DNA from: a virus
Reading direction: 5' to 3' (one strand)
Length of the DNA: 39,235 bases
IMG/VR virus record: IMGVR_UViG_3300038701_000590
Coordinates: 1 to 39,235 of that record
The notes under the pieces are model-generated. The model saw only the letters and a list, made by a program, of their open reading frames with translations. It made no database searches and was not told the DNA's origin. Below, one piece after another: positions 5,728 to 33,501 of the stretch (the stretch's first letter is position 1; the number at the start of each line of letters is the position of its first letter). Position numbers and translations under genes: made by a program.

Positions 5728-5842
5728 GTGTCGTTTCTCCTGTGTGAAGCGGGGGCCGTAACCCCCGCGTTGCTGCCATTGAGACAACATTACGCAATCC
5801 CCACCCCAGTGTAAATACAAATCGACACGTTTCTAAACGGTT
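5728..5842 (-). promoter_or_regulatory. Control region before the early small-gene operon
   Basis: Non-coding gap between the helicase stop and the first small gene. It holds the inverted repeat CGTTT-CT-AAACG at 5828-5839 (like 1040-1051) and a strong hairpin GCGGGGG/CCCCCGC at about 5749-5768 just before the ribosome-binding site. I could not define convincing -35 and -10 boxes here. The hairpin may be an attenuator or an mRNA-processing site. Confidence 0.4.
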
Positions 5843-7177
5843 TTATGGTTTGAGCGCGTCTAGCAGGCTTTTTTGCGAGGCGTCTTTGTCGCGCAGAACA
5901 GTCATCACGCGCTGGTCAATCGTACCATCAGCGACGATGTGGACGATCCTGACGGGCCGATCTTGACCTTGACGATGTAGGCGTGCGTTAAATTGCTGAT
6001 ACAACTCAAGTGACCAATTCAATCCAAACCAAACGCACAACGCGCCGCCTTTTTGGAGGTTCAAACCATGACCCGCACTGGCTGGGTGGGCTAGCAACAT
6101 TTTGATCTCACCACGGTTCCAAGCGTCAATCGTGTCTTGCGACTTGTCCAAAACCCGCGCGTCTGGAAACCGCGTCAACAAACGCTCCAGATCGCTTTTA
6201 TAGTTGTATGCGACAAGCATTGTTTCTGACGGGTTATCGTCAACGATCTCAGCAAGCGCGTCCAGCTTTGCGACGTGCGTTTCCGTCCAGTTTTTGTGCG
6301 CGTCCGTATAGATTGCACCATTGGCATATTGCATCAACTTGTTTGCCAGAACCGCAGCTGTTGACGCCTCAACCTCTTTGCCGTCGTCCAACTCAGCCAA
6401 CATCGTGCGCTCGAAGTCTTTGTAGCCAGGTTCCGCTTTGCCAAGCGAAACGGTTTCAACCAAATCAATTCGCGCTGGCATGTCCAAGTAGTCTTCTGCG
6501 CTCATGTGAATAACCTTGTCTGACACAAGCCGATGAATTTTGTCATCTGATCCGGCGCGCAATTCAAACTTACGCCCAAAATAGTCAGCTTCAAAAAACC
6601 GATGCTTGTATCCGGTCAAGGTGCGTCCAAGCCTTTCGCCGTAGTCGATCAGATACATCTGTGACCATAGATCAAGCAAGCCGTTCGGGCTGGGCGTCCC
6701 AGTCAGAAGCACAATGCTTTCAATGCTTGGCAGCATCTTGCGCAATGCCTTGAACCGTTTGCTGGAAGCGTTCTTGAATGAACTGCTTTCATCAACCACC
6801 ACCACATCAAACGGCCATTTTGACCCGTAATTCTGCACCAACCAAGGCACGTTTTCACGGTTGATAACGTACACATCAGCATCGACACTGAGAGCCGATC
6901 TGCGGACCTTCTCTGCACCAGTGCAGACCGACACCCGCAAATGATTGAGATGCACCCACAGCCGCGTCTCCTGCGCCCACACGCTGTTTGCAACGCGCAA
7001 AGGGGCAATGACCAAGACCTTGTTGGCGGTAAAACCGTCAAGCATGTCGCTGATTGCGGTAAGCGTGGACACGCTCTTTCCTAGACCCATCTCCAACGCC
7101 AACATGCAACGCTGCTCGCTCAGTATAAAATCAACAGCCTTGCGCTGATACGCGTGAAGATTATGGCGTGAAAGCAC
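5843..7177 (-). CDS. SNF2-type DNA helicase/ATPase
   Basis: A 444-residue superfamily 2 motor. Motif I is MGLGKS (residues 30-35), motif II VVDES (127-131), motif III LTGTPSPN (158-165); motifs V and VI are SAGHGLNLQ and QFNARLHRQGQ near the C-terminus. The compact length without extra domains is usual for phage members found beside VRR-NUC and polymerase genes. GTG 7177 is the start, set by GGAGGACGCCC just before it; it overlaps the nuclease gene by 17 bases. Probable role: DNA remodelling or branch processing in phage replication, in the cytoplasm. Confidence 0.88.
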   Translation of the reverse strand: MLSRHNLHAYQRKAVDFILSEQRCMLALEMGLGKSVSTLTAISDMLDGFTANKVLVIAPLRVANSVWAQETRLWVHLNHLRVSVCTGAEKVRRSALSVDADVYVINRENVPWLVQNYGSKWPFDVVVVDESSSFKNASSKRFKALRKMLPSIESIVLLTGTPSPNGLLDLWSQMYLIDYGERLGRTLTGYKHRFFEADYFGRKFELRAGSDDKIHRLVSDKVIHMSAEDYLDMPARIDLVETVSLGKAEPGYKDFERTMLAELDDGKEVEASTAAVLANKLMQYANGAIYTDAHKNWTETHVAKLDALAEIVDDNPSETMLVAYNYKSDLERLLTRFPDARVLDKSQDTIDAWNRGEIKMLLAHPASAGHGLNLQKGGALCVWFGLNWSLELYQQFNARLHRQGQDRPVRIVHIVADGTIDQRVMTVLRDKDASQKSLLDALKP

Positions 7178-7430
7178 GGGCGTCCTCCATGCTGTCGATC
7201 ACGCGCACATCGCAACCCAGCGCCCTGCGGCGCTCATGGTCGCGGTGCTGTAATTCCGTCGGCTTTTTGCCGGGGGCTTTCACCTCAACAAAGATGATCC
7301 GACCACCGGGCAGTGTGACAATGCGATCAGGCACAGATCGCTTTGTTGGGGACGTAAACTTTTCGCACGTCCCGCCCAACACCTTGACGCGCTGCACCAG
7401 CGCCCGTTCAACATCTCGCTCAAGCATCAT
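7161..7430 (-). CDS. VRR-NUC endonuclease
   Basis: An 89-residue stand-alone VRR-NUC nuclease of the PD-(D/E)xK fold. SVPDRIVTLPGGRIIFVEVK holds the core: the PD aspartate, then the E-V-K pair, followed by the basic helix (ELQHRDHERRRALG) and DVRVIDS strand. Phage VRR-NUC proteins cut branched DNA such as Holliday junctions. It lies between the polymerase (11-base overlap) and the helicase, consistent with joint replication and recombination. Confidence 0.9.
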   Translation of the reverse strand: MMLERDVERALVQRVKVLGGTCEKFTSPTKRSVPDRIVTLPGGRIIFVEVKAPGKKPTELQHRDHERRRALGCDVRVIDSMEDARAFTP

Positions 7431-9204
7431 TCACTCCTAATTGCTTGAACACCATTTTCGCCATCCCGACATATCGCTCAAAATCAACGTCGTCTGGAAA
7501 CACGCCTGGCAGATCGAGGCACGGCATCGCACCATCGCTCTGCGGAACCTTGTTGCTGTTCTTGGCGTAGTTGATTGTTTCGTCAGGGCTGACGGATGTG
7601 CTGTAATAAAACCGAACAGCCTTACCGAGTGACTGGTCGCGCCATGTCGCTCCACCAGTGACCTTGCGCAGCATGATTAGCTTTCGCATGTCCTGACATG
7701 AGCGGATCACGTCTTTGTAATTACCCGACCCAGACAGGTGTGCCGCTACTGCATCCGACACAATTTCAAACTGAGGGTTTTTCATCAGCCCGGCTTGTGC
7801 GAATGCGCCTTTGCGCTTGGCGGTTCCGTCAGGCTTAACGGCAATATAATTATTTACGTCTCGATTGTGCAAAGACAGATAATCGCTGCGCTCCAACTCG
7901 TAAGACGTGTCCAACTCCCAATCAAACATCACCTGCGCCAAGTCAGGCTCAAGGCGCTTGTGCGCAAAGACCACGATCCCGTCGGTATTGGCGCTGACAA
8001 CCTTTGCCCCAACACCCTCAACACGTTCGATCAACATCAACAGCGCAAGCTGACCAGTTATCGTTGTCTGGATCAGTAGGTTTGGGGCATACAGCGTTGA
8101 ATACTTGCTGCCCAACTTTCCAAACGACCCATTGACGACAATCTTGAGAGTGCTTGCGGTCACTGTATCGCCAGCGCGCTTGGCCTTGATGCGTCGATCA
8201 ACAATCGACTGATATACGCGCGTAAAGTTGTCGCCCATGCTGTCTGGCGCAATGTCTTGTTGTAGAATGATCGAAGGGTAATAGGACGCAACGTCAAAGT
8301 CGGCCAGCATGTGATCCGATCCAGCGTAAACGCTCTGTCCCTTTTCGCATGAGTGTAGACCGCCAACACCCATTTGATATTCACCATCGCCGATCTTGAT
8401 CTTGGTATCTTTGAGCCAATCAGGCATTTTGATTGACCCGTTGCCGCTTATCTCAAACCGATGCGCGATCAGGCGTGCCAGCACATCGCGCAGCGTCGGG
8501 CCGTTGAATGTGATGATCTTCGGATCAAGATACCGGAATGTCTCATCTTCGCTGATCTTCGGCACGCGCAACGTCTTGCCGCTTACATCCTCAACCTCGG
8601 ACTTCAACACAGCCTCGGCGATCTGCGCATCTGACTTTGACCGCAGATCGACACTATATTCCCGGCTCATGTCAACGCGCAGCGCCACTTGCTTTTCTAC
8701 CGTTTGATACAGCGCATCAGTTACGCGCAGATCATTCACGCAATACTTCTTCAACACTTCTCGCTGATCCGGCGCAATGCTTGCATTTGGTTCTATGGGC
8801 AAGTCTTGCAGCTTCGGGTATCCGAGCCTGCCAGCATATACTTTGAGGCTGGCCTGACCTGGCACAACGTCGAAGATGTCAATGTGGTCCCACTTCTGCG
8901 GAATTTCGATGCCGTGTTCTTTGCAGACGCGCCAGCTTGGAAGGTTGCTTTTGATGATCGCATCACTGATGCGCTTCAACTCTCCACAGTTGCGGTTTTC
9001 CAGCGCACCCGCAATCATCGGCAGGTCGTAGCTGTTCCCATTAAAGCTGATCGTCGTGTGGCTGCGCATCAGATTCGACACCTTAGAAACATCAAGTTTC
9101 TTGTCGGTGTGCATTTCAAAAGACGCAACTTTTCCGCTTCCACGGTCCAAAAAACAAATCAAGAAATAGTCACGGTAACATTCAACGTCGAGTATTAATG
9201 CCAT
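7420..9204 (-). CDS. Compact family-B-like DNA polymerase with 3'-5' exonuclease
   Basis: 594 residues. The exonuclease motifs are intact: DVE (6-8), FNGNSYD (54-60) and YCVND (154-158). Polymerase motif A is DVASYYPS (304-311), motif B KIVVNGSFG (354-362) and motif C SANTDGIVV with NTDG at 406-409. Family-B enzymes usually have DTDS there, so the first aspartate is Asn. The TPR insertions of protein-primed enzymes are not obvious. GGAGG lies nine bases before the ATG. It is the replicative enzyme of the leftward operon. Confidence 0.85.
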   Translation of the reverse strand: MALILDVECYRDYFLICFLDRGSGKVASFEMHTDKKLDVSKVSNLMRSHTTISFNGNSYDLPMIAGALENRNCGELKRISDAIIKSNLPSWRVCKEHGIEIPQKWDHIDIFDVVPGQASLKVYAGRLGYPKLQDLPIEPNASIAPDQREVLKKYCVNDLRVTDALYQTVEKQVALRVDMSREYSVDLRSKSDAQIAEAVLKSEVEDVSGKTLRVPKISEDETFRYLDPKIITFNGPTLRDVLARLIAHRFEISGNGSIKMPDWLKDTKIKIGDGEYQMGVGGLHSCEKGQSVYAGSDHMLADFDVASYYPSIILQQDIAPDSMGDNFTRVYQSIVDRRIKAKRAGDTVTASTLKIVVNGSFGKLGSKYSTLYAPNLLIQTTITGQLALLMLIERVEGVGAKVVSANTDGIVVFAHKRLEPDLAQVMFDWELDTSYELERSDYLSLHNRDVNNYIAVKPDGTAKRKGAFAQAGLMKNPQFEIVSDAVAAHLSGSGNYKDVIRSCQDMRKLIMLRKVTGGATWRDQSLGKAVRFYYSTSVSPDETINYAKNSNKVPQSDGAMPCLDLPGVFPDDVDFERYVGMAKMVFKQLGVNDA

Positions 9205-9265
9205 GAGGGGTGGCCTCCATGTCTGGCGATGTGGTGAGGGGCGACCGAAGCCGCCCCGCTAGGTC

Positions 9266-9793
9266 TTACATGAAGTCGTCCATCTCGGCGTCGTCAAATA
9301 CGTCAAAATCATCTGCGCTGGCGCTGACACCATCGGCAAACGGCTCGCCGTCCTTAAAGAATTGTACACCGAGCAGGTTGGCGTTGATGCGCTTCCCATA
9401 CTGGTTGTCTTGCGCCCACAACTCAATCACCGCGTTGACGTAGCAACCCGCATAAATGCGGTTATCGTCTTCGGTCAGCGGTGAGCGGTCACGGTCCAAC
9501 ACCATCGGGCGTTTGCCGTTGGACGCCTTGATTGACATATGACCGGCGTAACCAGCGTAGTCGATGTCGTCGCCGTCCTTCAGGCAAATCTTGTCAGCCT
9601 TTAGCTTTGCGCCTTTCAGCCGATCAGCGATCAAACCTTCAATCGCCTTTTCAATTTCGGCGATCTTGTCTGCCTGCGTATCTTTGTCAATCAGGAACGT
9701 GCCTTCAAACTTTGTTTCTTCGCCAGAAAACGTGGCTTTGCGGAACAAAGACGGAAACGAGAGGCGCACGTTGTTCAATTTGATCTTCGACAT
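9266..9793 (-). CDS. DUF2815-type ssDNA-binding-like protein
   Basis: 175 residues from MSKIKLNNVRLSFPSLF, start fixed by AAAGGAAAAG; upstream codons in this frame lack a site. The N-terminal signature and the NAVIELWAQDNQYGKRINANL block match DUF2815, whose members occur next to phage polymerase and DUF2800 genes. The acidic C-terminus (DDFDVFDDAEMDDFM) looks like the tail by which single-strand-binding proteins recruit partners. I infer the phage SSB. A 61-base gap with a small GGGGCG/CGCCCC hairpin separates it from the polymerase gene. Confidence 0.82.
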   Translation of the reverse strand: MSKIKLNNVRLSFPSLFRKATFSGEETKFEGTFLIDKDTQADKIAEIEKAIEGLIADRLKGAKLKADKICLKDGDDIDYAGYAGHMSIKASNGKRPMVLDRDRSPLTEDDNRIYAGCYVNAVIELWAQDNQYGKRINANLLGVQFFKDGEPFADGVSASADDFDVFDDAEMDDFM

Positions 9794-9858
9794 TTTACTT
9801 TTCCTTTCAGGGTTTTTGCGCTGCGTTTTGCAGCGTTCTTGCACAATACATTTCGATT

Positions 9859-11028
9859 TTAACCAGTGCAATCACTAAAATCGTTTTCTGATACACCCAA
9901 CGCTGGGCGCGGATCAGATGACTTTGCCAATGTTGGTGCGCCGCTTGGCTTCACAATCAAGTCGGCAACATCTGATGCGCGTTTCTTGCCCAACGCCTTT
10001 TCAGCTTGTGCAGGGCTGATGATCTTGCGCGGCGCAAAGGCATTGTCGTCAAGCATATCAACCAGTCTCGCTTCTGCATTGCGCTCATCTGACCAGCGGC
10101 GATTGCTTCGCCCCTCAACCAGCTTGTACCCATCAAAGCTGCCACCATCGGTAAGACGATCTTTGACAAGGGTTTCAATAGCCGACAACCAGCTTTCGAT
10201 CAGAGGCTTTGCGTCAAGGGCTGTCCGCATCTGCGCATCAGTAAGCGTGTTGGCCTTGGGCATGTTGTCTAGGTCATCAAATTCAGACAAGATCACCGCT
10301 TCAGTCATGTCGCGTAGGGCTTGGCATGATGCCTTGGCACGGCAGAACCGACATTGCTTTTCGCCGGGTACGCGCGGTGCATCATCTTCGGCTGTTTCTT
10401 CGGCGCGTTGCTTTGCCCATTCAGCCCACCGCAACAGGGCGTCAATGCTGATTTCCCATTCGCTGATGTGGTCAAGGCGCGGTTGCACAATGCTGATGCG
10501 GGCAGTGTGTATGTCACCGATCCAACTGTTCTCAGCGTATGCGCCCAGCGCGTAAAGCATCCCCTGCGGGTTTTCTTCGGCATCTACGCGCACACCCATG
10601 CCGTACTTAAGGTCGCAGACGTGGATCACACCATCCTTGATAATGACCGCATCAGCAGTGCCGAAACCACCCTCAACCCAATCGGCGTAACTGACGCGCT
10701 GTTCAATCTCGAACAAATCAGCACCTTTGGCGGCTTGATTGACGTAATCAACGTACACGCGCACAAAGTCAGCCATTTCGGTGTTTTCATAAAGGTCAAG
10801 CCATTCGTGGGATTTGATGTGCGCGTAGCGATCAAAGTCGTCGCCATCAACATGCTCCGGTGGAAGGTGTGCCATGCGCAAAGCCATTTCGGCCAACTCA
10901 TGCGCCTCAGTACCTTCGGCTGCGAACGGGCTTGTTGTGTTGGGAATGTCGCGTTCAGCTTCAACGCTGCCGGGACATACAAGCCAGCGGTGCGCGTTGG
11001 ACGCGCCAAGCGTCGCGTGCGCAGTCAT
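9859..11028 (-). CDS. DUF2800 Cas4/RecB-like nuclease
   Basis: 389 residues. The PD-(D/E)xK core is visible as GTADAVIIKDGVIHVCDLKYG (about residues 122-142; here D125, D139 and K141), followed by QGMLYALGAY, the QxxxY motif. A cysteine at residue 18 and the cluster CRFCRAKASC near 222-231 would hold an Fe-S cluster as in Cas4/AddB-like nucleases. Found with DUF2815 and polymerase in many phages; likely end resection or recombination. The start overlaps the previous stop as ATGA. Confidence 0.85.
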   Translation of the reverse strand: MTAHATLGASNAHRWLVCPGSVEAERDIPNTTSPFAAEGTEAHELAEMALRMAHLPPEHVDGDDFDRYAHIKSHEWLDLYENTEMADFVRVYVDYVNQAAKGADLFEIEQRVSYADWVEGGFGTADAVIIKDGVIHVCDLKYGMGVRVDAEENPQGMLYALGAYAENSWIGDIHTARISIVQPRLDHISEWEISIDALLRWAEWAKQRAEETAEDDAPRVPGEKQCRFCRAKASCQALRDMTEAVILSEFDDLDNMPKANTLTDAQMRTALDAKPLIESWLSAIETLVKDRLTDGGSFDGYKLVEGRSNRRWSDERNAEARLVDMLDDNAFAPRKIISPAQAEKALGKKRASDVADLIVKPSGAPTLAKSSDPRPALGVSENDFSDCTG

Positions 11029-11348
11029 TGATCTGCACCCAGCGATGTGACCCAGCCGTAAAACGCAACTGCGTTGCCCGCATCGAGGTCTTGGATTTTC
11101 GTCACGCCAAACCCAGCCAGCTTGTCTCGGATCGCGTCTTTATGACCAGATCGCGCAGCCTTGAGCGTGGCGTCTTTAAGGTCTTGGGCGTTTGGGGTTT
11201 TTTGTGTCAGTGTTTGATCGCCTGGCTTCGGTGTCGGTGTCAGCGTTGACGCATCGTCGTTTGACGTCGGCGTGTTTGACTGGGCTTCAATCACCGCCGT
11301 CAGCTTTTCAACGGCATCTGTTAGGGCTGCGATTTTCTGTTCAAGCAT
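11025..11348 (-). CDS. Unknown replication-operon protein, 107 residues
   Basis: First gene of the leftward replication operon. Residues 1-22 form a coiled coil (KIAALTDAVEKLTAVIEAQ), then a Thr/Pro-rich linker, then a small helical domain (KDAIRDKLAGFGVTKIQDL and VAFYGWVTSLG). This C-terminal domain type is common in short phage proteins next to recombination genes. Possible multimeric partner of the DUF2800 nuclease or SSB. GAGGAAACC precedes the start. Confidence 0.6.
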   Translation of the reverse strand: MLEQKIAALTDAVEKLTAVIEAQSNTPTSNDDASTLTPTPKPGDQTLTQKTPNAQDLKDATLKAARSGHKDAIRDKLAGFGVTKIQDLDAGNAVAFYGWVTSLGADQ

Positions 11349-11423
11349 TTTAGGTTTCCTCTTGTTGCGATAACCGGTTTATTACTATACGTTACGCGAC
11401 AATGCAACACGAAAGGAAACGAA
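11349..11423. promoter_or_regulatory. Divergent promoter/operator between replication operons
   Basis: Minus strand: TTGCAT, 17 bases, TAATAA. Plus strand: TTGTTG, 17 bases, CTATAC. The two promoters overlap. An imperfect inverted repeat, GTTGCGATAAC (11364-11374) and GTTACGCGAC (11391-11400), flanks the centre, and AACCGGTT (11372-11379) is a perfect palindrome inside it. The HTH protein encoded just to the right is the obvious candidate to bind here. Confidence 0.5.
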
Positions 11424-11597
11424 ATGCTGCGATCCAGTGAACTGGCCGAACACCTCGGCCTGACCAAGAACAAAATCATCCAGCTTGCCAACAACGGTGA
11501 AATCCCCGCGATCAGGCTTCCAAGCGGGCATTATCGCTTTGACGCAGACGCAGTGGTTGAGGCGTTGCGCACAGGTGGCAGCAAGAATGATGATTAA
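11424..11597 (+). CDS. Excisionase/MerR-like helix-turn-helix protein, 57 residues
   Basis: MLRSSELAEHLGLTKNKIIQ, then NNGEIPAIRLPSGHYRF: the winged helix-turn-helix pattern of HTH_17/excisionase proteins, where the helix pair is followed by a beta wing with GHYRF. ATG 11424 has AAAGGAAACG before it. It starts 27 bases from the right arm of the inverted repeat in its own promoter, so autoregulation of the two divergent operons is likely. With no integrase in view, a role as a true excisionase is unlikely. Confidence 0.75.
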   Translation: MLRSSELAEHLGLTKNKIIQLANNGEIPAIRLPSGHYRFDADAVVEALRTGGSKNDD

Positions 11598-14049
11598 ATT
11601 CACTTACTGTAAAAACTTCGCTCATGCCGAAACCAAGGAAGTCGAGTGGGACGATTTTTCCCGCGTCGCCGTCAAGTCGGTCGGGTTTGACACCAAAGAA
11701 CAAAGCATCCAGCGCGCGGCCATTGTCGGAGGCGTTCGCGCTGATGAAACTGCTGGGCGGGCTGAAAACATAGCCGCCCGCACAATGGCGTCGCTTGATT
11801 ATGATGATCTGCCGGCTGGCACGACAATCGAAGATGTAGAACTGGCATTATCACTCAGCCTTGATTGCGCATTCACAGCTTACAGCACTTTTCGGCACGC
11901 GCCGAATGTGCCGCGCTTTCGTGTATTTGTCCCGCTGTCGCGGCCAGTTGCGCCGGATGAATATCCGTCGATTGTTGACGCTATTGCTCATACCATTGGC
12001 CTCAGCGGCCTTGATGACTGCTCATACACCGTCAATCAAATCATGTTTTTGGCGTCTCACAAGCACGGCACAGAACCTTGGAGTTTGTCGCAAGACGGCG
12101 AGCCTTGGGGCGTGGCAGATGCGCCTGTTGGCGGGATTGTGCGGGCCGAGCGTGAAGACGACGATCTAAGTATAGCAGTCATCAATCAGCCGCTGGACAT
12201 TACGCCAGATGAGGTTGACGCGATCTTGGAAAACCACCCGCCGCATGATCTGGATTATGATGATTGGTTGCGTGTGGGAATGGCGATCTACCACCAAACA
12301 GAAGGGCGTGGTTACGAAAAATGGCTGCGGTGGTCAGAACAGTCGCCCAAGCACGACGCCCGCCAAATGAAAACCAAGTGGCGCAGCTTTGGGGGATCAT
12401 CAAACCCAGTCACTATGCGGTCAATCATCAAAGCAACAGGCGGGATGGCCAAAGGCGCGGTCGTCACTGCTGACAGCGATGTTGCTTTGTCTTTGGAAGC
12501 TGAGGCCGAGCAAGTCTCTGATCGCGGGACTTACTCGGCGTTCAAAAAGCGTGTTCAGGCGCTTAACGAAATACAGCTTTCGCCGGATATTAGATCGCTT
12601 TTAGCCAAAACCGTTCACGAGGTCTACGCCAAAGATGCTGGTATGGGGCTGCGTGAAGTAAAGGCGTCATTCAAGCCGATCAAGGCTAGTCGCTGGGCAG
12701 CTGGCGCAGATGGTGATACCGTTGAAATGCCAGAATGGCTTGATGGGTGGTGTTATCACACTGCCGACAATCTTTTCGTGAATGTTGAAAACCCGGCGCT
12801 GGCAATAAATGACCGTGGGTTCAACGCGAAGTTTGCCCACAAACAAGATGTCATCGCAGCCGAAATGTCGGCGTCCGATTACGCGATAAGGCACATTCAC
12901 ATTCCAACAGTGGACCGCTTGTTTTTCATGCCTGACACGGCTGAATTGTTTTGTGAGCGCAACGGCTTTCAAGCCCTTAATACATACCGTCGTAAAGGTG
13001 TGACCCCATGTGAGACACTTGAGGGTGACACAGACGCGCAAATGGTTGTTGATCTGTTCATGCAGCATCTGGCGTGGACATTCCCCAAAGAAGAAGAACA
13101 ACGCCTTGTTCTTGATTGGATGGCGCATGTTTACCAAAACCCCGGCCAGCGGGTGAATTGGGCGCTGCTGATCTGGGGCATACCGGGATCAGGGAAGACG
13201 CTTCTGTTTAACATCTTGCAACGTGTGATCGGACCAGAAAACACGAAAGACGTGTCACCAAGCAGCATCAAGACAGACTACAATGACTGGGCTGTCGGTG
13301 GGATCGTCGGTTGCATCGAGGAAATTCGGATCAGCGGCCAGAGCAAGTGGGCGGTGATGGATATTATGAAGCCGGCAATAACCAACGACTTTTTGGCAAT
13401 CAACCCGAAGGGAAAGACGTCATACTCAGGCGCTCCAAACTTTTGCTCATACATGATGTTGACCAACCACCAAGACGCGATTCCGGTGAACGACGCGGAC
13501 AGGCGGTTCTGCGTTCTTTTTTCTGCACACAACGACACGCAGGCAATGGAGGCCACACACGGCGGGCCAGAGGGCTTGGCGGCGTATTTCAGGTCTCTTT
13601 TTGATGGGTGCGTAAACCGCCGACCAGACGCTATGGCGCGGCTCCTGGCGGACCATAAAATCTCCCCAACATTCGATCACAAGGGGCGCGCGCCGAGGAC
13701 TGAGGCGTTCAAGAAAATGGTGGATGCCAACGTCTCTGATGAGCATCAAATCATCTTGGATATGATCGAAGACCACCAATCGGATATACTTAACGACAGG
13801 ATCATTTGCGTCACCGAGTTGCGCGCACAGGCGGCGATGAACGCCGAGTCCGAGTTACCCACCGGGCGGGCGCTGGGGCAGATTTTGAGGGAAATGGGTT
13901 ACCAACCCGTAGGCCCCAAATACTATCGGGTTCGGGGCCTGAAGCACTTTGTTTGGGTCAGATCGGGGCGCATTGACGAGGATGAAGCGAAAAATCTGGT
14001 CAGGGGGTTCTACGACACTGCCTCAGATTTTGCAGATGTTCCGTTCTGA
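11587..14049 (+). CDS. Primase-polymerase / SF3 helicase (PriCT-2, DUF5906-like)
   Basis: 820 residues. N-terminal archaeo-eukaryotic primase domain: LDYDD (about 70-74), then YSTFRHAP with PRFRVFVPLSRPV, and D in LDDCSY. A PriCT-2 linker domain (PPHDLDYDDWLRVGMAIYH) spans roughly 203-285. The helicase has Walker A GIPGSGKT (about 531-538), and MLTNHQDAIPVNDADRRF (about 622-640) as sensor/arginine region. I start at ATG 11587, inside the HTH gene, with AGGTGG before it; an earlier in-frame ATG at 11485 has no site. It should prime and unwind at the nearby repeat array. Confidence 0.88.
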   Translation: MMIKFTYCKNFAHAETKEVEWDDFSRVAVKSVGFDTKEQSIQRAAIVGGVRADETAGRAENIAARTMASLDYDDLPAGTTIEDVELALSLSLDCAFTAYSTFRHAPNVPRFRVFVPLSRPVAPDEYPSIVDAIAHTIGLSGLDDCSYTVNQIMFLASHKHGTEPWSLSQDGEPWGVADAPVGGIVRAEREDDDLSIAVINQPLDITPDEVDAILENHPPHDLDYDDWLRVGMAIYHQTEGRGYEKWLRWSEQSPKHDARQMKTKWRSFGGSSNPVTMRSIIKATGGMAKGAVVTADSDVALSLEAEAEQVSDRGTYSAFKKRVQALNEIQLSPDIRSLLAKTVHEVYAKDAGMGLREVKASFKPIKASRWAAGADGDTVEMPEWLDGWCYHTADNLFVNVENPALAINDRGFNAKFAHKQDVIAAEMSASDYAIRHIHIPTVDRLFFMPDTAELFCERNGFQALNTYRRKGVTPCETLEGDTDAQMVVDLFMQHLAWTFPKEEEQRLVLDWMAHVYQNPGQRVNWALLIWGIPGSGKTLLFNILQRVIGPENTKDVSPSSIKTDYNDWAVGGIVGCIEEIRISGQSKWAVMDIMKPAITNDFLAINPKGKTSYSGAPNFCSYMMLTNHQDAIPVNDADRRFCVLFSAHNDTQAMEATHGGPEGLAAYFRSLFDGCVNRRPDAMARLLADHKISPTFDHKGRAPRTEAFKKMVDANVSDEHQIILDMIEDHQSDILNDRIICVTELRAQAAMNAESELPTGRALGQILREMGYQPVGPKYYRVRGLKHFVWVRSGRIDEDEAKNLVRGFYDTASDFADVPF

Positions 14050-14289
14050 GGCCCCGAAAACCCCAAACAGGCCCCGAAACAGGCCCCGAAGTTGATTGTT
14101 TCGGGGCCTGATTTTTTCTTTTGTTTTCTTATGTTTATAGCTCTAGGCCCCGAAAGCCTCGAAAAAAGTAAGTAGTAGTATAAAAGTAATTTAATTTTAA
14201 AATTTGTGTTTTCACACAGTGTAAAATTTAAAGTTAATATTAGAACTGCGCTGACCGGGGATTTTCGGGGCTTTCGGGGCTTCGGGGCC
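14050..14289. other. Candidate replication origin: repeat arrays flanking A+T-rich core
   Basis: GGCCCCGAA(A) occurs at 14050, 14070, 14082 and 14146 on the plus strand, and inverted as TTTCGGGGC(C) at 14099, 14262, 14272 and 14281. Between the arms, 14161-14247 has about 18% G+C by hand count, far below the rest of the window. It includes GTGT-TTTC-ACAC and runs of A/T. Iterons beside an unwinding element next to a PrimPol-helicase gene fit an origin. Two more copies lie in the end of the helicase gene (13912 with one change, 13931). Part of the array doubles as a terminator. Confidence 0.6.
14082..14121 (+). terminator. Terminator after the primase-helicase gene
   Basis: GGCCCCGAA (14082-14090) pairs with TTCGGGGCC (14100-14108) across nine bases, then TGATTTTTTCTTTT. 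A strong rho-independent terminator built from two oppositely oriented copies of the repeat. 14290-14476 beyond the array holds no convincing gene, only the leader of the next operon. Confidence 0.75.
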
Positions 14290-14748: not shown

Positions 14749-15345
14749 ATGCTTATATCCCAAACACGCACCCCCGTGCCACCCGCGCAACCCGCCAAGC
14801 GCCGACCGATGACCGAGGACGAACTGATCGCCGCCATGAAGGAGGACGCTAAGGAAATCGCCAAGCGACACCACCGCGAACGACCACCATCCCAACAAGC
14901 GCGAGGGCCAATAGCAGAGCACAAGATTTACGACTTCATCGCACAGAACCCAAATTGCAGCGTGCTTGACATCGCGGCACACTTCGACAGGCAGTCCAAA
15001 TCTATATCCAGTCTGCTGTCGCGCATGGAGGGCCGCAATGCGATCAAGGCAACGATGGGCAAAAACCCAGCAACAGGCCGACCAATTCGCTTGTTTAAGA
15101 TCGTGCCGGAAAAGAAGATCGACAGACAGCGCGTGTCGCAAACCAAAGCAGTCTTTGATTACATCAAAGCAAATCCTGGTTGCAGCAAGGCCGAAATGGC
15201 CGCAGGGTTAAATCTGAGCACCAAACAGATCGAAGGCGCGCTGACCAACATGGGACGTTACAAAGACCGCTTTCCGATCCGGCGCGAGTACGAAAACGGC
15301 AAGCGGTCGGCGGTGCGTGTCTGGGCAACGGAGGCCGTGCAATGA
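14749..15345 (+). CDS. Tandem winged-helix DNA-binding protein, 198 residues
   Basis: Two similar winged-helix units: residues about 60-108 (IYDFIAQNPNCSVLDIAAHF, then SLLSRMEGRNAI) and about 135-190 (VFDYIKANPGCSKAEMAAGL, then GALTNMGRYKD). Both contain the NPxCS turn before the recognition helix. The N-terminus is a proline-rich, charged extension. GGAGTAACGCAC precedes the start. Probably a sequence-specific DNA-binding protein, for example a late-gene regulator. Stop overlaps the next start as ATGA. Confidence 0.65.
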   Translation: MLISQTRTPVPPAQPAKRRPMTEDELIAAMKEDAKEIAKRHHRERPPSQQARGPIAEHKIYDFIAQNPNCSVLDIAAHFDRQSKSISSLLSRMEGRNAIKATMGKNPATGRPIRLFKIVPEKKIDRQRVSQTKAVFDYIKANPGCSKAEMAAGLNLSTKQIEGALTNMGRYKDRFPIRREYENGKRSAVRVWATEAVQ

Positions 15346-16118: not shown

Positions 16119-16265
16119 TGGATAGCCCAGCGGGCGGTGGCGAGGCGGTCGCAAAAGTCATGGTTCGTTCATGGTGCCTCTAACACCCGCAGCCACGGCC
16201 CGGTCCCAATGCGACCTTCTTCCTGCTGGGTGACGTGGCAATCAACACATGATAGGATTAACGAC

Positions 16266-17489
16266 ATGACACAATGGCCCGCAGACAAACCAGAACGGCG
16301 CAAGGTCTCAGACCTGACGCCATACGCGCGCAACAGCCGAACCCACAGCGATGAGCAGGTGGCGCAGATCGCCGCCAGCATTAAGGAGTGGGGCTTCACA
16401 ACGCCCGTTCTAATCGACCCTGACGGCGGCATCATCGCAGGGCATGGCCGCGTTATGGCCGCACAGCGCCTTGGGCTGGAGGACGTGCCTTGCATCATCG
16501 CACAGGGGTGGAGCGATGCGCAAAAGCGGGCTTACGTCATCGCGGACAACAAGCTGGCTCTCAATGCCGGGTGGGATAATGAAATGCTCGCCGTGGAGTT
16601 TGGCGAACTCAAAGACCTTGATTTTGATCTTAGCCTGACTGGCTTTGAGATGGACGAAATTGACGCTCTATTTCCAGAGGATGTCACAGAAGGGCTGACT
16701 GACGAGGACGCGGTGCCGGAGGCACCAGAGGCGCCCGTTACGGTCGAGGGCGATGTGTGGGTGCTGGGGCGGCATCGGCTGATGTGCGGGGATAGCACGA
16801 GCATTGATGCGGTGGAGCGGTTGATGGATGGCATGAAGGCGGACATGGTTTTCACCGATCCGCCTTATGGGGTAGAGTATCAAAGCAATAAAAGGACAAA
16901 GAGCGCCAAGTTTGACGTGCTAAAAAACGACGACATGTTCTTGGACATCGCTCCGATCATTGAGGCATGTTCCACTGGGTGGGTCTTTGTTTGGACAAGC
17001 TGGAAGGTTCAAACCAAATGGATCGACCAGTTTCAATCTATGGGCTATCCGACAAACATTGTCGTCTGGCACAAGCCCGGCGGCGGCATAGGCGACTTGA
17101 AAAAGACGTTTTTCAGCGATTACGAAATCGCGCTGGTCTGGCATCGTGGCGCTGAGCTGTGCGGCAAGCGGATCGGCAGCGTTTGGACAGTGAACAAGGA
17201 CGGCGCATCAACCTATGTTCACCCAACGCAAAAGCCCGTTGCGCTGGCAGAGGAGGCGCTCGACAAGACAACGCGCGCATCTGCCGTTATCATGGACCTT
17301 TTCGGCGGCAGCGGCTCCACCCTAATCGCTTGCGAAAAGACAGCCCGCGACTGCCGCATGATGGAACTCGACCCCAAGTATTGCGACGTCATCATCAAAC
17401 GCTGGCAGGACTTCACAGGCCAACAAGCCACCCTTGAGGCAACAGGCCAGACATACGACGAACTCAAGGATGAGCGGGAGGCCGCGTGA
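16266..17489 (+). CDS. ParB/Srx-domain DNA methyltransferase
   Basis: 407 residues. N-terminal ParB-like domain (VSDLTPYARNSRTHSDEQV and the GxxxGHGR motif in IIAGHGRVMAAQRLG) at about 12-90. Then a DNA methyltransferase of the beta class: DPPYG (about 198-202) comes before the SAM motif LFGGSGST (about 344-351), with HPTQKP between. The likely product is N6-methyladenine or N4-methylcytosine in DNA. This fusion is common in phages next to terminase genes and may protect phage DNA from host restriction. AGGATTAACGAC sets the start; an upstream frame extension has no site. Confidence 0.87.
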   Translation: MTQWPADKPERRKVSDLTPYARNSRTHSDEQVAQIAASIKEWGFTTPVLIDPDGGIIAGHGRVMAAQRLGLEDVPCIIAQGWSDAQKRAYVIADNKLALNAGWDNEMLAVEFGELKDLDFDLSLTGFEMDEIDALFPEDVTEGLTDEDAVPEAPEAPVTVEGDVWVLGRHRLMCGDSTSIDAVERLMDGMKADMVFTDPPYGVEYQSNKRTKSAKFDVLKNDDMFLDIAPIIEACSTGWVFVWTSWKVQTKWIDQFQSMGYPTNIVVWHKPGGGIGDLKKTFFSDYEIALVWHRGAELCGKRIGSVWTVNKDGASTYVHPTQKPVALAEEALDKTTRASAVIMDLFGGSGSTLIACEKTARDCRMMELDPKYCDVIIKRWQDFTGQQATLEATGQTYDELKDEREAA

Positions 17490-26101: not shown

Positions 26102-27276
26102 TGGCTGATCCAACACCGCTCAACCGAAACCAGATCGCCCGCTTCGTCGGAAATGACCCGGACTCAATCCGGGCGCTTGAGCGGCTGTTCGTGGTGGCTG
26201 GGCAACTGACGCCTGCGGACATTGCAACGCTGACGCAATTGATCCTCGACAACAGCTATGCGGTGGGCGCGGCGGACAACAAGGCAGAGGTGGCGCTGTC
26301 GAGCGCGACGACGGATTACATCGATCTGAACCGCTCCGCACCGCATGTCAGCCGCATCGCACGCTTGGCGTGGAATGATGCTGAGCAGACCGCCGACCTT
26401 GGCATGGACTATGGCGTGGTTCAGCAGATCGGCTTGGAGTATTACGCGCGGGTTGAGAATGCGACCGGCGTGACGATCCCCAATGGCTCGGTGGTGGGCT
26501 TTGCTGGTGTCAGCGGCAACAACGTGATCTCGGTCACGCCATATCTGGCGGATGGGTCGCAATCATCGCTCTACATTCTCGGCGTGCTGACGCATGATCT
26601 GCCCAACAGCGGCGAGGTTGGGTATTGCACCGTCTGGGGCCATGTGCGCGGCGTGGACACCAGCGCGTTTTTGGTCGGCGATATTCTCTATGCAAGCCCG
26701 ACAGTGGCGGGCGGCTTTACGGCGACCAAGCCGACCGCGCCTGATAACGTGATCCCGGTGGCTTCTGTGCTGGCTGTCGATGCGACCGACGGCGAAATAT
26801 TCGTGCGCCCAACCGTTGAGCAGCAGCAATTTTATGGCGAGTTCACCAAGACGACCGACCAGACACCGGCGGCGATCAACACGGCTTACGCACTGACATT
26901 CGACAACACCGAGATTGCAAACGGGGTGGCGATCGGGACGCCTGCTTCGCGCATCGTCGTGCCGGAGAGTGGTCTTTATCAATTCGATGTGACGATCCAA
27001 GTCACCAGCGGAAACACATCCGCAAAGAATGTCTGGTTGTGGTTTCGCAAGAATGGAACGGACGTGGCGAACAGCGCGCGCATCGTGACGATCAACATCA
27101 ACAATGGCTATGTTCCGGTTTCACTGGCTGAGTTTTTCTCGCTGGCTGCCTCGGATTACATCGAGATCATGTTTGCGGCAGACGACACCAACGTGACCAT
27201 CGACAATGTCGCATCAACCGCGTTTGCGCCTGCGGCTCCGGCCGTTGTTCTGGCGGTTTCGCAGGTTCAGCAATAG
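26101..27276 (+). CDS. Candidate tail needle with C-terminal jelly-roll tip
   Basis: 391 residues in the slot of P22 gene 26, directly after gp10. The start (LNRNQIARFVGNDPDSIRAL) is common to podophage proteins in this place. The last 140 residues (GLYQFDVTIQVTSGN, NVWLWFRKNGTDVANS, DYIEIMFAADDTNV) have the strand order of C1q/TNF-like jelly rolls; the related phage Sf6 needle ends in a TNF-like knob. By place and tip I infer a needle or needle-like plug; the central part is not an obvious coiled coil, so a decoration protein remains possible. Confidence 0.55.
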   Translation: MADPTPLNRNQIARFVGNDPDSIRALERLFVVAGQLTPADIATLTQLILDNSYAVGAADNKAEVALSSATTDYIDLNRSAPHVSRIARLAWNDAEQTADLGMDYGVVQQIGLEYYARVENATGVTIPNGSVVGFAGVSGNNVISVTPYLADGSQSSLYILGVLTHDLPNSGEVGYCTVWGHVRGVDTSAFLVGDILYASPTVAGGFTATKPTAPDNVIPVASVLAVDATDGEIFVRPTVEQQQFYGEFTKTTDQTPAAINTAYALTFDNTEIANGVAIGTPASRIVVPESGLYQFDVTIQVTSGNTSAKNVWLWFRKNGTDVANSARIVTININNGYVPVSLAEFFSLAASDYIEIMFAADDTNVTIDNVASTAFAPAAPAVVLAVSQVQQ

Positions 27277-31327: not shown

Positions 31328-33501
31328 TGGCGGACCTTGATCCTATCGCGCTGGCAACGGCAATTGCTGAAGCACAATCCAAAGCCGAAAAGCCTGGCGT
31401 CTTGTCTCGCCTATGGACTTCCATCGCGGGGTCTGATGCAGACCCAACAATCCCTGCAATGGTTGATGCCCGTCTTGGGCTTCCGCCTGCGAAGTCAGCA
31501 CAAATGACAGCTTTGCTGGCGACAACGCGCAGCCCAGATCGGCTTCGCAGCGGCATTGCCAAGATTGAGCCAGATGCTGAATTTGGTGAAGACGATGCAG
31601 GTCGCTTGTTCGCGGTGCTTCCTGTGTATCGTGAAGGCAAAAAGACCGGTCAGTTCTCGCGGGTATATCCAAACGAGCCGGGCCTTGGCCTGACAGAAGC
31701 CATGCAGGCGTCTGGGGCCGTGGCGATGGCAACGCCTGTGGGGCGCGGGCTGCGCGCTCTGGGTGTGCCGACAACGGGTGCAGCTGGCGCTGCCGCCATT
31801 GGCGCGACAGAGGCTGCCTTGGTCGAGGGCGCAAGTTCAAGCCTGACGGGTGCGCCGTTTCAGGTGACTGACATTCCTCTCGGCGCTGCTGGCGGTGTTG
31901 CTGGTGAAAAGCTGTTTAATGTGGTCGGGTCACTTGTTTCTGCAGCGCGGCGATCTGGTCCTGAAGCTATTATTGGCCCTGATGGCAGGCTTTTGCCGGG
32001 GCCAGCGCGATTTGTTGAGCAGGCTGGTCTAAACCCGGATCAGGTGACAGAGGCGGTCGCGCGAGAAATACAGAAGCAGGTGCGATCCGGCATCGAGCCA
32101 GAAGCGGCGGCCGTTTCGGCAATGTCTCGTGGGCTTCCAGTTGAAGTCCCAATGACCAGGGGGCAAGTCACGGGCAGCAAAAGCCAGCAGCTTGCCGAGG
32201 ACGTCATGGCCAGCGGAGGCATGGGCGGCGTTGCTGAGCAGAGAATGGGCGAGTTCCGCGCGGGGCAACAAGAGGCGTTGCGCGAAAACATCGGGGCTAT
32301 TGCCGAAGGGCTGGCACCCGGCACGACGCCGATCAGCAAGGGCGAAGGCGGGGCGCTTGCTCAGGATGCTTTGGTTGCGGCGAGAGCGGGCGATCAGGCG
32401 CGCGCCAATGAACTTTATGCGCAGGCCCGGTCTTCTGGGTTTGCGGCTGTTGAGCCACAAGAAGCGCTGCGCATCACAGATGCGGCTCGCTCAACCTATC
32501 GAGAGGGTTTTGACCCGATCACTGCGCCGAAGATGGACCAGCTTCTTCTGCGGCTTGACGAAATCATGGAAAATGGCGGCGATGTTCAGTCACTGCAGAC
32601 TTGGCGTCGTCAGGTCAGCAACCTGCGATCGGGCGAGCCTGATGTCGAAGGCGCTGCCGCTGGCGCTGTTCTTCGCCAGTTTGATGAACAGTTGAAAGAT
32701 GCTGTCGATAATCAGCTTTTGATCGGCGACCAAGCCGCGGTTGACGCTTGGCAAAACGCGATCCGAAATTACGCTGAGTATGCCAGCACATGGAAAGATC
32801 GCGGCGGCATCCTGAACCTGCTGACGGAACAAACGACCCGTGACGGACAGCGTCAGTTGAGAGTTCCACCCGAAAGCGCTGCAAACGCGATCTTCACAAT
32901 GACGGCATCGGGTCTGGCGAGAAAAACAGGCCTGCCCAGAGACTTGCTGACGTTGAAAAGCCAGCTTCGAGAGCCCGAGTGGAACGCTCTGCGCCAAGAG
33001 GCATTCACAAGGCTGATGGACACAACTCGCGGGGCGTTTCGCGGGGGCGAGCGGCAGTTCTCGGGCGTGACGTTTAAAAAGGCATTGGAAAACCTGCGGA
33101 ATGACAACCCCGGCGTTATGAACGCGCTGTTTACCAGAGACGAACAGGCGCTGTTCAGCCAGTTTGCTGACGTGGCAGCCCGCGCGACGAACGTGGCGAT
33201 CAACGCTTCGAACACCGCGAACACTGCGGCGGGTCTGATCCCAAGGATTGCATCCGCAATGGCCGCCACCGGTCCGGGCCAGTTTGCGATCAACAACTTC
33301 TTGGCAAAAGCCATTCAGCTGCCGTTCGGGGCCGCCAGGGCCGCGTCTGCAACGGCACAGCGAAATGCGCCTCGGCAGATCGTCGGCACGCCCAGAGCCG
33401 GTGCTGTGGGGGCAGGAACGGGGGCTGCGCTGTCGCAAGAGGAAGAACTTGGGCCGCGCATCCCAATCACTGGCCGCATGACGGTTGGTGGCCCGCAATG
33501 A
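31327..33501 (+). CDS. Ejection protein 3, P22 gp16 position
   Basis: 724 residues from ATG 31327 (TAATG). Largely helical and Ala/Gly-rich, with no lysozyme motif seen. About residues 120-190 are hydrophobic and glycine-rich (TPVGRGLRALGVP, AAGAAAIGATEAALVEG), and the C-terminal part has helical blocks such as QFADVAARATNVAINASNTA. Third and longest of the ejection-type genes; it probably crosses or lines the host envelope during DNA entry. Assignment rests on position, length and composition. Confidence 0.65.
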   Translation: MADLDPIALATAIAEAQSKAEKPGVLSRLWTSIAGSDADPTIPAMVDARLGLPPAKSAQMTALLATTRSPDRLRSGIAKIEPDAEFGEDDAGRLFAVLPVYREGKKTGQFSRVYPNEPGLGLTEAMQASGAVAMATPVGRGLRALGVPTTGAAGAAAIGATEAALVEGASSSLTGAPFQVTDIPLGAAGGVAGEKLFNVVGSLVSAARRSGPEAIIGPDGRLLPGPARFVEQAGLNPDQVTEAVAREIQKQVRSGIEPEAAAVSAMSRGLPVEVPMTRGQVTGSKSQQLAEDVMASGGMGGVAEQRMGEFRAGQQEALRENIGAIAEGLAPGTTPISKGEGGALAQDALVAARAGDQARANELYAQARSSGFAAVEPQEALRITDAARSTYREGFDPITAPKMDQLLLRLDEIMENGGDVQSLQTWRRQVSNLRSGEPDVEGAAAGAVLRQFDEQLKDAVDNQLLIGDQAAVDAWQNAIRNYAEYASTWKDRGGILNLLTEQTTRDGQRQLRVPPESAANAIFTMTASGLARKTGLPRDLLTLKSQLREPEWNALRQEAFTRLMDTTRGAFRGGERQFSGVTFKKALENLRNDNPGVMNALFTRDEQALFSQFADVAARATNVAINASNTANTAAGLIPRIASAMAATGPGQFAINNFLAKAIQLPFGAARAASATAQRNAPRQIVGTPRAGAVGAGTGAALSQEEELGPRIPITGRMTVGGPQ

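Follow-up and report, generated by a model that had tools for sequence, protein, structure and literature searches.

A candidate phage replication origin of facing iteron arrays directly 3' of a PrimPol–SF3 helicase gene

Origins of PICIs, which are helper-dependent satellites, lie 3' of rep and consist of two iteron sets around an AT-rich region, a plan that a 2018 paper described as common to no other known bacterial replicon (PMC6092414). In the pri-rep-ori organisation of PICIs and SaPIs, including the Gram-negative EcCICFT073, the origin is located directly 3' of the initiator gene and is recognised by the C-terminal domain of a self-loading Rep helicase that is sometimes fused to a primase (PMC6092414, PMC7581432); SaPI Rep and SCCmec Cch2 each use a C-terminal domain to bind repeats that lie downstream of the respective gene (PMC7581432). 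In the P4 alpha protein, a single polypeptide combines a TOPRIM-type primase and a helicase with a winged helix, which binds origin repeats (PMC4234260). PrimPol–SF3–winged-helix proteins with an origin 3' of their gene are represented by pRN1 ORF904 and BPP-1/BIP-1, the phage versions carrying PriCT-2, and Berkner 2014 proposed a stem-loop and dismissed iterons (PMC4234260); the related protein of pRN1 gave no specific in vitro binding to its origin. The closest solved structure and fold is that of the NrS-1 primase-polymerase, whose C-terminal helicase region forms a ring and which recognises an 8-nt template site present twice per genome, the text consulted describing no facing arrays (PMC7102993).

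Here, we analysed the 39,235-nt IMG/VR virus record IMGVR_UViG_3300038701_000590 (positions 1 to 39,235; hereafter the window), for which a preliminary description had put forward facing repeats around an A+T-rich core as a candidate phage origin. Clustering of the repeats, a layout conserved among relatives and covariation of the repeat word with the initiator's winged helix support that proposal, making it very likely that the repeat region functions as a replication origin. The fuller reading, in which 14050–14289 plus the final ~140 nt of the gene before it constitute the phage replication origin and the PrimPol–SF3 helicase encoded upstream is its initiator, is in our judgement highly probable on this comparative sequence evidence.

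The region shares with PICI/SaPI-type origins an AT-rich region with an iteron set on either side, the location directly 3' of the initiator gene and a helicase initiator with a putative C-terminal DNA-binding domain. It differs from them in belonging to full-size phages with their own DNA polymerase, in having iterons within the end of the gene and in having a hairpin built of iterons. A PICI element itself can be rejected: terminase, portal, scaffold, coat and head-closure genes lie downstream, the terminase genes 3.4 kb from the region, and these virion genes mark a phage rather than a satellite. P4 has a two-site ori/crr arrangement, which was not seen here. The 820-residue initiator has no TOPRIM match, being of the PriCT-2 and primase-polymerase type instead, so that a P4 alpha-type replicon is also rejected. 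Lambda carries iterons inside its O initiator gene, beside an AT-rich element; lambda O is without a helicase, whereas in the present phage the proposed initiator and the helicase are a single protein and most of the iterons are extragenic. An iteron plasmid origin of the RepE/RepA/TrfA type, with DnaA boxes next to its iterons and a helicase-less initiator, does not fit either, as the region holds no exact DnaA box and the initiator has a helicase domain; across the 43 loci described below, DnaA boxes are not clearly enriched (28 one-mismatch boxes versus 26.8 expected, 3 exact versus 0.7). New here are the occurrence of this plan in full phages, the variety of natural words, the winged-helix covariation and the in-gene copies; a search of the open-access literature found no description of such an origin in such phages.

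The repeat region and its proposed initiator gene

The features of the locus are as follows.

11587–14049, + strand: gene of the 820-aa PrimPol, PriCT-2, SF3/D5-type helicase and winged-helix protein, the proposed initiator (Pfam PriCT_2 and DUF5906; PHROG DNA primase families; AF2 model)
13792–13971, + strand: codons of the C-terminal winged helix (residues 736–795), the proposed iteron reader (AF2 model; covariation peak with the repeat word)
13911–13939, no strand assigned: in-gene iterons AGGCCCCAAA (one mismatch) and exact TTCGGGGCC (13931–13939) (repeat search; family enrichment)
14050–14091, + strand: outer left iterons GGCCCCGAA(A) at 14050, 14070 and 14082 (repeat search)
14080–14122, + strand: hairpin of one direct and one inverted iteron with a T run behind it, probably terminating transcription of the gene and proposed to double as binding sites
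14099–14108, − strand: inverted iteron forming the right arm of the hairpin (repeat search)
14146–14164, + strand: tandem pair GGCCCCGAAA-GCCTCGAAA forming the inner left array, with a 9-bp period and oriented towards the right array (repeat search; geometry of relatives)
14165–14262, no strand assigned: A+T-rich core, proposed DNA unwinding element (G+C minimum; contains a spaced dyad)
14263–14289, − strand: right tandem triple TTTCGGGGC-TTTCGGGGC-TTCGGGGCC at 14263, 14272 and 14281, 9-bp period (repeat search; geometry of relatives)

The word GGCCCCGAA occurs 8 times in the window versus 0.38 expected, a count reached by 0 of 100 dinucleotide shuffles. Six of these copies fall in 14050–14289; of the other two, the first is at the 3' end of the initiator gene (13931) and the second outside this locus, at 33325, in agreement with the earlier expectation that the repeats cluster here instead of being spread evenly. 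The preliminary description counted four direct and four inverted copies: the direct ones stand (14050, 14070, 14082 and 14146), whereas only two of the inverted ones are exact (14100 and 14281), those at 14263 and 14272 being TTTCGGGGC, which lacks the first G; a ninth, degenerate direct copy, GCCTCGAAA at 14156, adjoins the 14146 copy. Its placement of the region's start one base past the helicase gene was correct (stop codon 14047–14049, region from 14050), and its estimate of about 18% G+C for the core agrees with the computed 18.4% at 14161–14247, compared with 56.8% for the window. The lowest-GC 87-mer of the whole window starts at 14159 (18.4%), the next lowest having 32.2%. Two elements had been missed, namely the extension of the repeat field upstream into the last ~140 nt of the PrimPol–helicase gene (an exact copy at 13931, one-mismatch copies at 13913 and 13962) and a terminator-like hairpin with a 13-bp stem at 14080–14110 followed by T-rich DNA. 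A nucleotide search of the region against named phages gave no match.

Domain matches and an AlphaFold2 model (mean pLDDT 79.6, pTM 0.45; 27 window and locus sequences) describe the 820-aa protein as a helicase with a putative DNA-binding domain at its C-terminus. The modelled winged helix spans residues 742–792, with helices at 742–751 and 761–769 and strands at 780–782, 785–787 and 789–792; because pTM is 0.45, the arrangement of the domains in the model is uncertain. The best solved relative is the C-terminal region of the NrS-1 phage primase, 6k9c.

Layout and repeat words in relatives

Protein-guided scanning, four times over virus contigs and once over genome contigs, yielded some tens of full-length close relatives and many distant ones. 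For statistics we used 43 loci including the window, non-redundant at 97% identity, each encoding a full-length protein and scoring 34 or more for its word; the initiators at the relatives' loci are 32–76% identical to that of the window. Words were found by position-weight search, plain 8-mer counts failing at loci with degenerate copies such as L053.

The 43 loci have a common layout of outer repeats, a hairpin formed by an inverted pair, and then two facing arrays around an AT-rich core. Essentially every close relative sharing the helicase has this layout at this locus, nearly all of them directly past the stop codon, yet with a different word: GGCCCCGAA in L005, GTCCTCGAA in L006, AGTCCCTAA in L007, GGGGCGCAAAG in L009, CACTGAGCACT in L019, ACTGGGCACC in L021, ATTGCGCCCC in L030, TTGCACCCCAA in L039, CTGGTCCCCT in L044, CTGTTCCCCT in L046, ATTGCGCATC in L053 and AGGTCGCAAT in L144. 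The word is lineage-specific, and within a locus every copy changes together; since the copies of a locus share its word, they evolve together. The hairpin, too, is made at the corresponding place from each locus's own word. Two loci that seemed empty at first, L055 and L228, carry a full array with the word ATATGCGCAAA ~320 nt downstream, past other intervening sequence, and thus retain every layout element at a distance from the gene.

Measured from the stop codon, copies at 0–30 have the orientation opposite to the right array, those at 35–65 (the hairpin) have the same orientation as it, those at ~95–117 are again opposite, and the right array itself lies at 205–260; these bins were read off the same data and therefore describe the layout rather than test it independently. 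Of 41 loci measured, 40 have facing arrays, which enclose a core of 76–118 bp (median 105); the spacing within arrays is mostly 7–9 bp. The G+C content of the core is 0.31 versus 0.56 for the locus and is the lower of the two in 40/40. The repeat-strength score has a median of 71 in the origins, whereas 258 control segments taken from these contigs have a median of 27, with 95th and 99th percentiles of 47 and 70, respectively; 40 of the 43 origins exceed the former (compared by hand) and 22 the latter. Because repeat strength alone passes the 99th percentile in just 22 of 43, it is layout, position and covariation that carry the argument. In about half of the distant relatives (~30% identity), the position-weight method finds no clear array within 330–400 nt past the gene, and wider validity outside the close family therefore has only partial support.

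Copies inside the initiator gene were searched with each locus's own word, learned solely from DNA past the stop codon, against a null of synonymous-codon shuffles. The last 210 nt of the gene contain a copy in 18 of 43 loci versus 3.1 expected, with a total of 19 copies versus 3.2 (sd 1.7; maximum 8 in 100 shuffles), compared with 15 versus 10.4 in the remainder of the gene. Their positions vary by lineage (−117, −84, −75, −46), and they therefore seem to arise repeatedly.

A candidate origin of the same plan is visible in the sequences of cultured Casjensviridae phages and Bordetella phage BPP-1. Burkholderia phage AH2 has 9 exact copies of AGGTCCGAAT in 58 kb, all lying from the primase end to just across the cos end. 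BcepNazgul, SS2019XI, Vibrio phage 1.017.O and Enc34, each using a word of its own, have by inspection the inner pair, the AT core and the right array, the inner element of BcepNazgul being a single copy, not a pair. None of the records examined for AH2 and these phages carries an origin annotation at these places. In BPP-1, four of the six genome copies of GCCTCGTTT form two facing tandem pairs (26609–26626 and 26691–26708) around a 64-nt core of 36% G+C, and the array lies ~470 nt 3' of the primase gene.

Several further repeats were noted at these loci. A spaced dyad in the AT core goes beyond chance in 12 of 40 cores (seen in L005, L024, L030, L033, L057, L142 and L206, with CTGTAGACTT...AAGTCTACAG at several loci) and might be an operator or an additional protein site; with 12/40 loci, we rejected it as a general feature. 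The dyad of the window's own core (14191–14205 / 14223–14237) is borderline, 2 of 30 shuffles being equally good. In L055, ACCGCCAATAA-like units that bear no relation to the origin word are repeated in tandem at 5820–5995; L226 has a long GGCGGCA/GGCGGCATC-type array at 280–520, upstream of the initiator gene; and L037 has extra GGGGGCGCAATG-type words beyond the right array, ~275–300 nt past the gene stop (7484) and outside the standard layout.

The reader of the repeat word and competing explanations

For the 43 loci we compared word distance with protein distance in 60-residue windows while holding whole-protein distance constant (partial Mantel with label permutation, which is not a full phylogenetic model). 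Covariation peaks at residues 721–795, with a partial rho of 0.53. By domain, the partial rho is 0.50 for the winged helix (p 0.001), 0.47 for the wing alone, −0.30 for the primase and −0.08 for PriCT. Thinning the set to a single representative of each 70% identity cluster (22 loci) leaves the winged-helix value at 0.50 (p 0.001), and that of the helicase drops to 0.14 (p 0.14); linker residues 380–470 also give some signal in this set (partial 0.37, p 0.008). The winged-helix signal is 0.48–0.51 when loci with iterons in the wing codons are removed, and we thus rejected the possibility that it merely reflects those iterons. The co-encoded DNA polymerase and exonuclease give no word signal (−0.06 and −0.18). 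By eye, the TTTCGGGGCC, TTCGAGGAC, TTAGGGACT and TTAGGGCCT lineages are mostly aromatic at a place in the wing where most others have arginine. It is likely, judging from this covariation, that the repeat word is read by the winged helix of the phage's own PrimPol–helicase.

The preliminary description had left the binder as the PrimPol–helicase or a partner, and the covariation favours the former. In the manner of lambda O and RSF1010 RepC, a separate DNA-binding protein might read the iterons and bring in the helicase; candidates would be the HTH protein (14749–15345) and the ParB–MTase fusion (16137–17489) encoded within 3.5 kb. However, homologues of the HTH gene are present at 0 of 42 relatives' loci and those of the DUF6378 and ParB–MTase genes at 3 each, yet the iterons are there, and the change of word follows the helicase's own winged helix; we regard such a partner as very unlikely. 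A packaging (pac/cosB-like) or partition (parS-like) site might be considered from the arrays that adjoin the cos end in Casjensviridae such as AH2 and from terminase genes at 3.4 kb in the window, but TerS and TerL relatives are near the array in just 2–3 of 42 loci, the array accompanies the replication module, and the word follows the PrimPol winged helix, leaving this reading hardly any probability at all.

Two further explanations turn on the hairpins. The 13-bp stem at 14080–14110 with its T-rich downstream DNA, and the similar hairpins of relatives, would suit repeats that are merely a transcription terminator and related hairpins ending the initiator gene, but a terminator has no need for in-gene iterons, for facing arrays ~100 bp apart, for the lowest-GC core or for a word that covaries with a protein domain, and L055 and L228 keep all elements ~320 nt from the gene; we therefore give this explanation very little credence. 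A pRN1-type origin, in which the initiator recognises a stem-loop structure and not an iterated word, draws on the identical protein architecture (PrimPol, helical domain, SF3, winged helix), on the stem-loop that pRN1 requires 3' of the gene and on the facing arrays, which here also form an inverted repeat. Such an origin would make the tandem copies on each side and the in-gene and extra copies unnecessary, whereas here iterated words dominate, the word covaries with the putative DNA-binding domain, and the core dyad is beyond chance in only 12/40. We thus rejected the pRN1 type, with its iteron-free stem-loop, as a class and find recognition of structure instead of a word highly improbable.

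Proposed initiation and a possible replication cassette

In the origin proposed here, the winged helix, mainly its wing, would bind each 9–10 bp iteron, and the facing tandem pairs or triples with their 7–9 bp spacing would nucleate two opposed helicase rings flanking the A+T core. These rings would melt the core and then unwind outward, the fused primase-polymerase domain would lay the first primers, and the phage's own DNA polymerase (7420–9204) would extend them. The inverted iteron pair before the core probably also terminates transcription of the initiator gene, an arrangement through which transcription and the bound initiator may affect each other. The mechanism is known in kind because of the precedents of PICI origins and of SaPI Rep and SCCmec Cch2. 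We also lean towards the broader view that PrimPol–SF3–winged-helix phages share one origin class, a portable initiator–origin cassette in which the wing reads a private 9–10 bp word, some of its sites lying within initiator codons. If so, a specificity code for a self-loading replicative helicase could be read from the more than 40 natural word–protein pairs, and origin sites could be predicted in cultured phages such as BPP-1, AH2 and Nazgul. An organisation described as unique to phage satellites appears common in ordinary phages with a fused PrimPol–helicase; it provides a natural data set linking DNA words to the winged helix of a helicase thought to load itself, and may explain how initiator and origin stay matched when phages swap replication modules.

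On the opposite strand, the window encodes an SNF2-like helicase, an endonuclease, the DNA polymerase and an exonuclease. Of these, the DNA polymerase gene accompanies the origin in 31/42 loci and the exonuclease gene in 34/42, counts limited by flank length, and the array module travels with the replication genes, not with the downstream genes. The block at 5843–14289, comprising the SNF2 helicase, endonuclease, DNA polymerase, exonuclease, PrimPol and origin, is common to phages that differ downstream and in this resembles an interchangeable replication cassette with the origin as its end point. The ParB-like domain encoded at 16137–17489 is fused to a DNA methyltransferase, and its gene adjoins the terminase genes.
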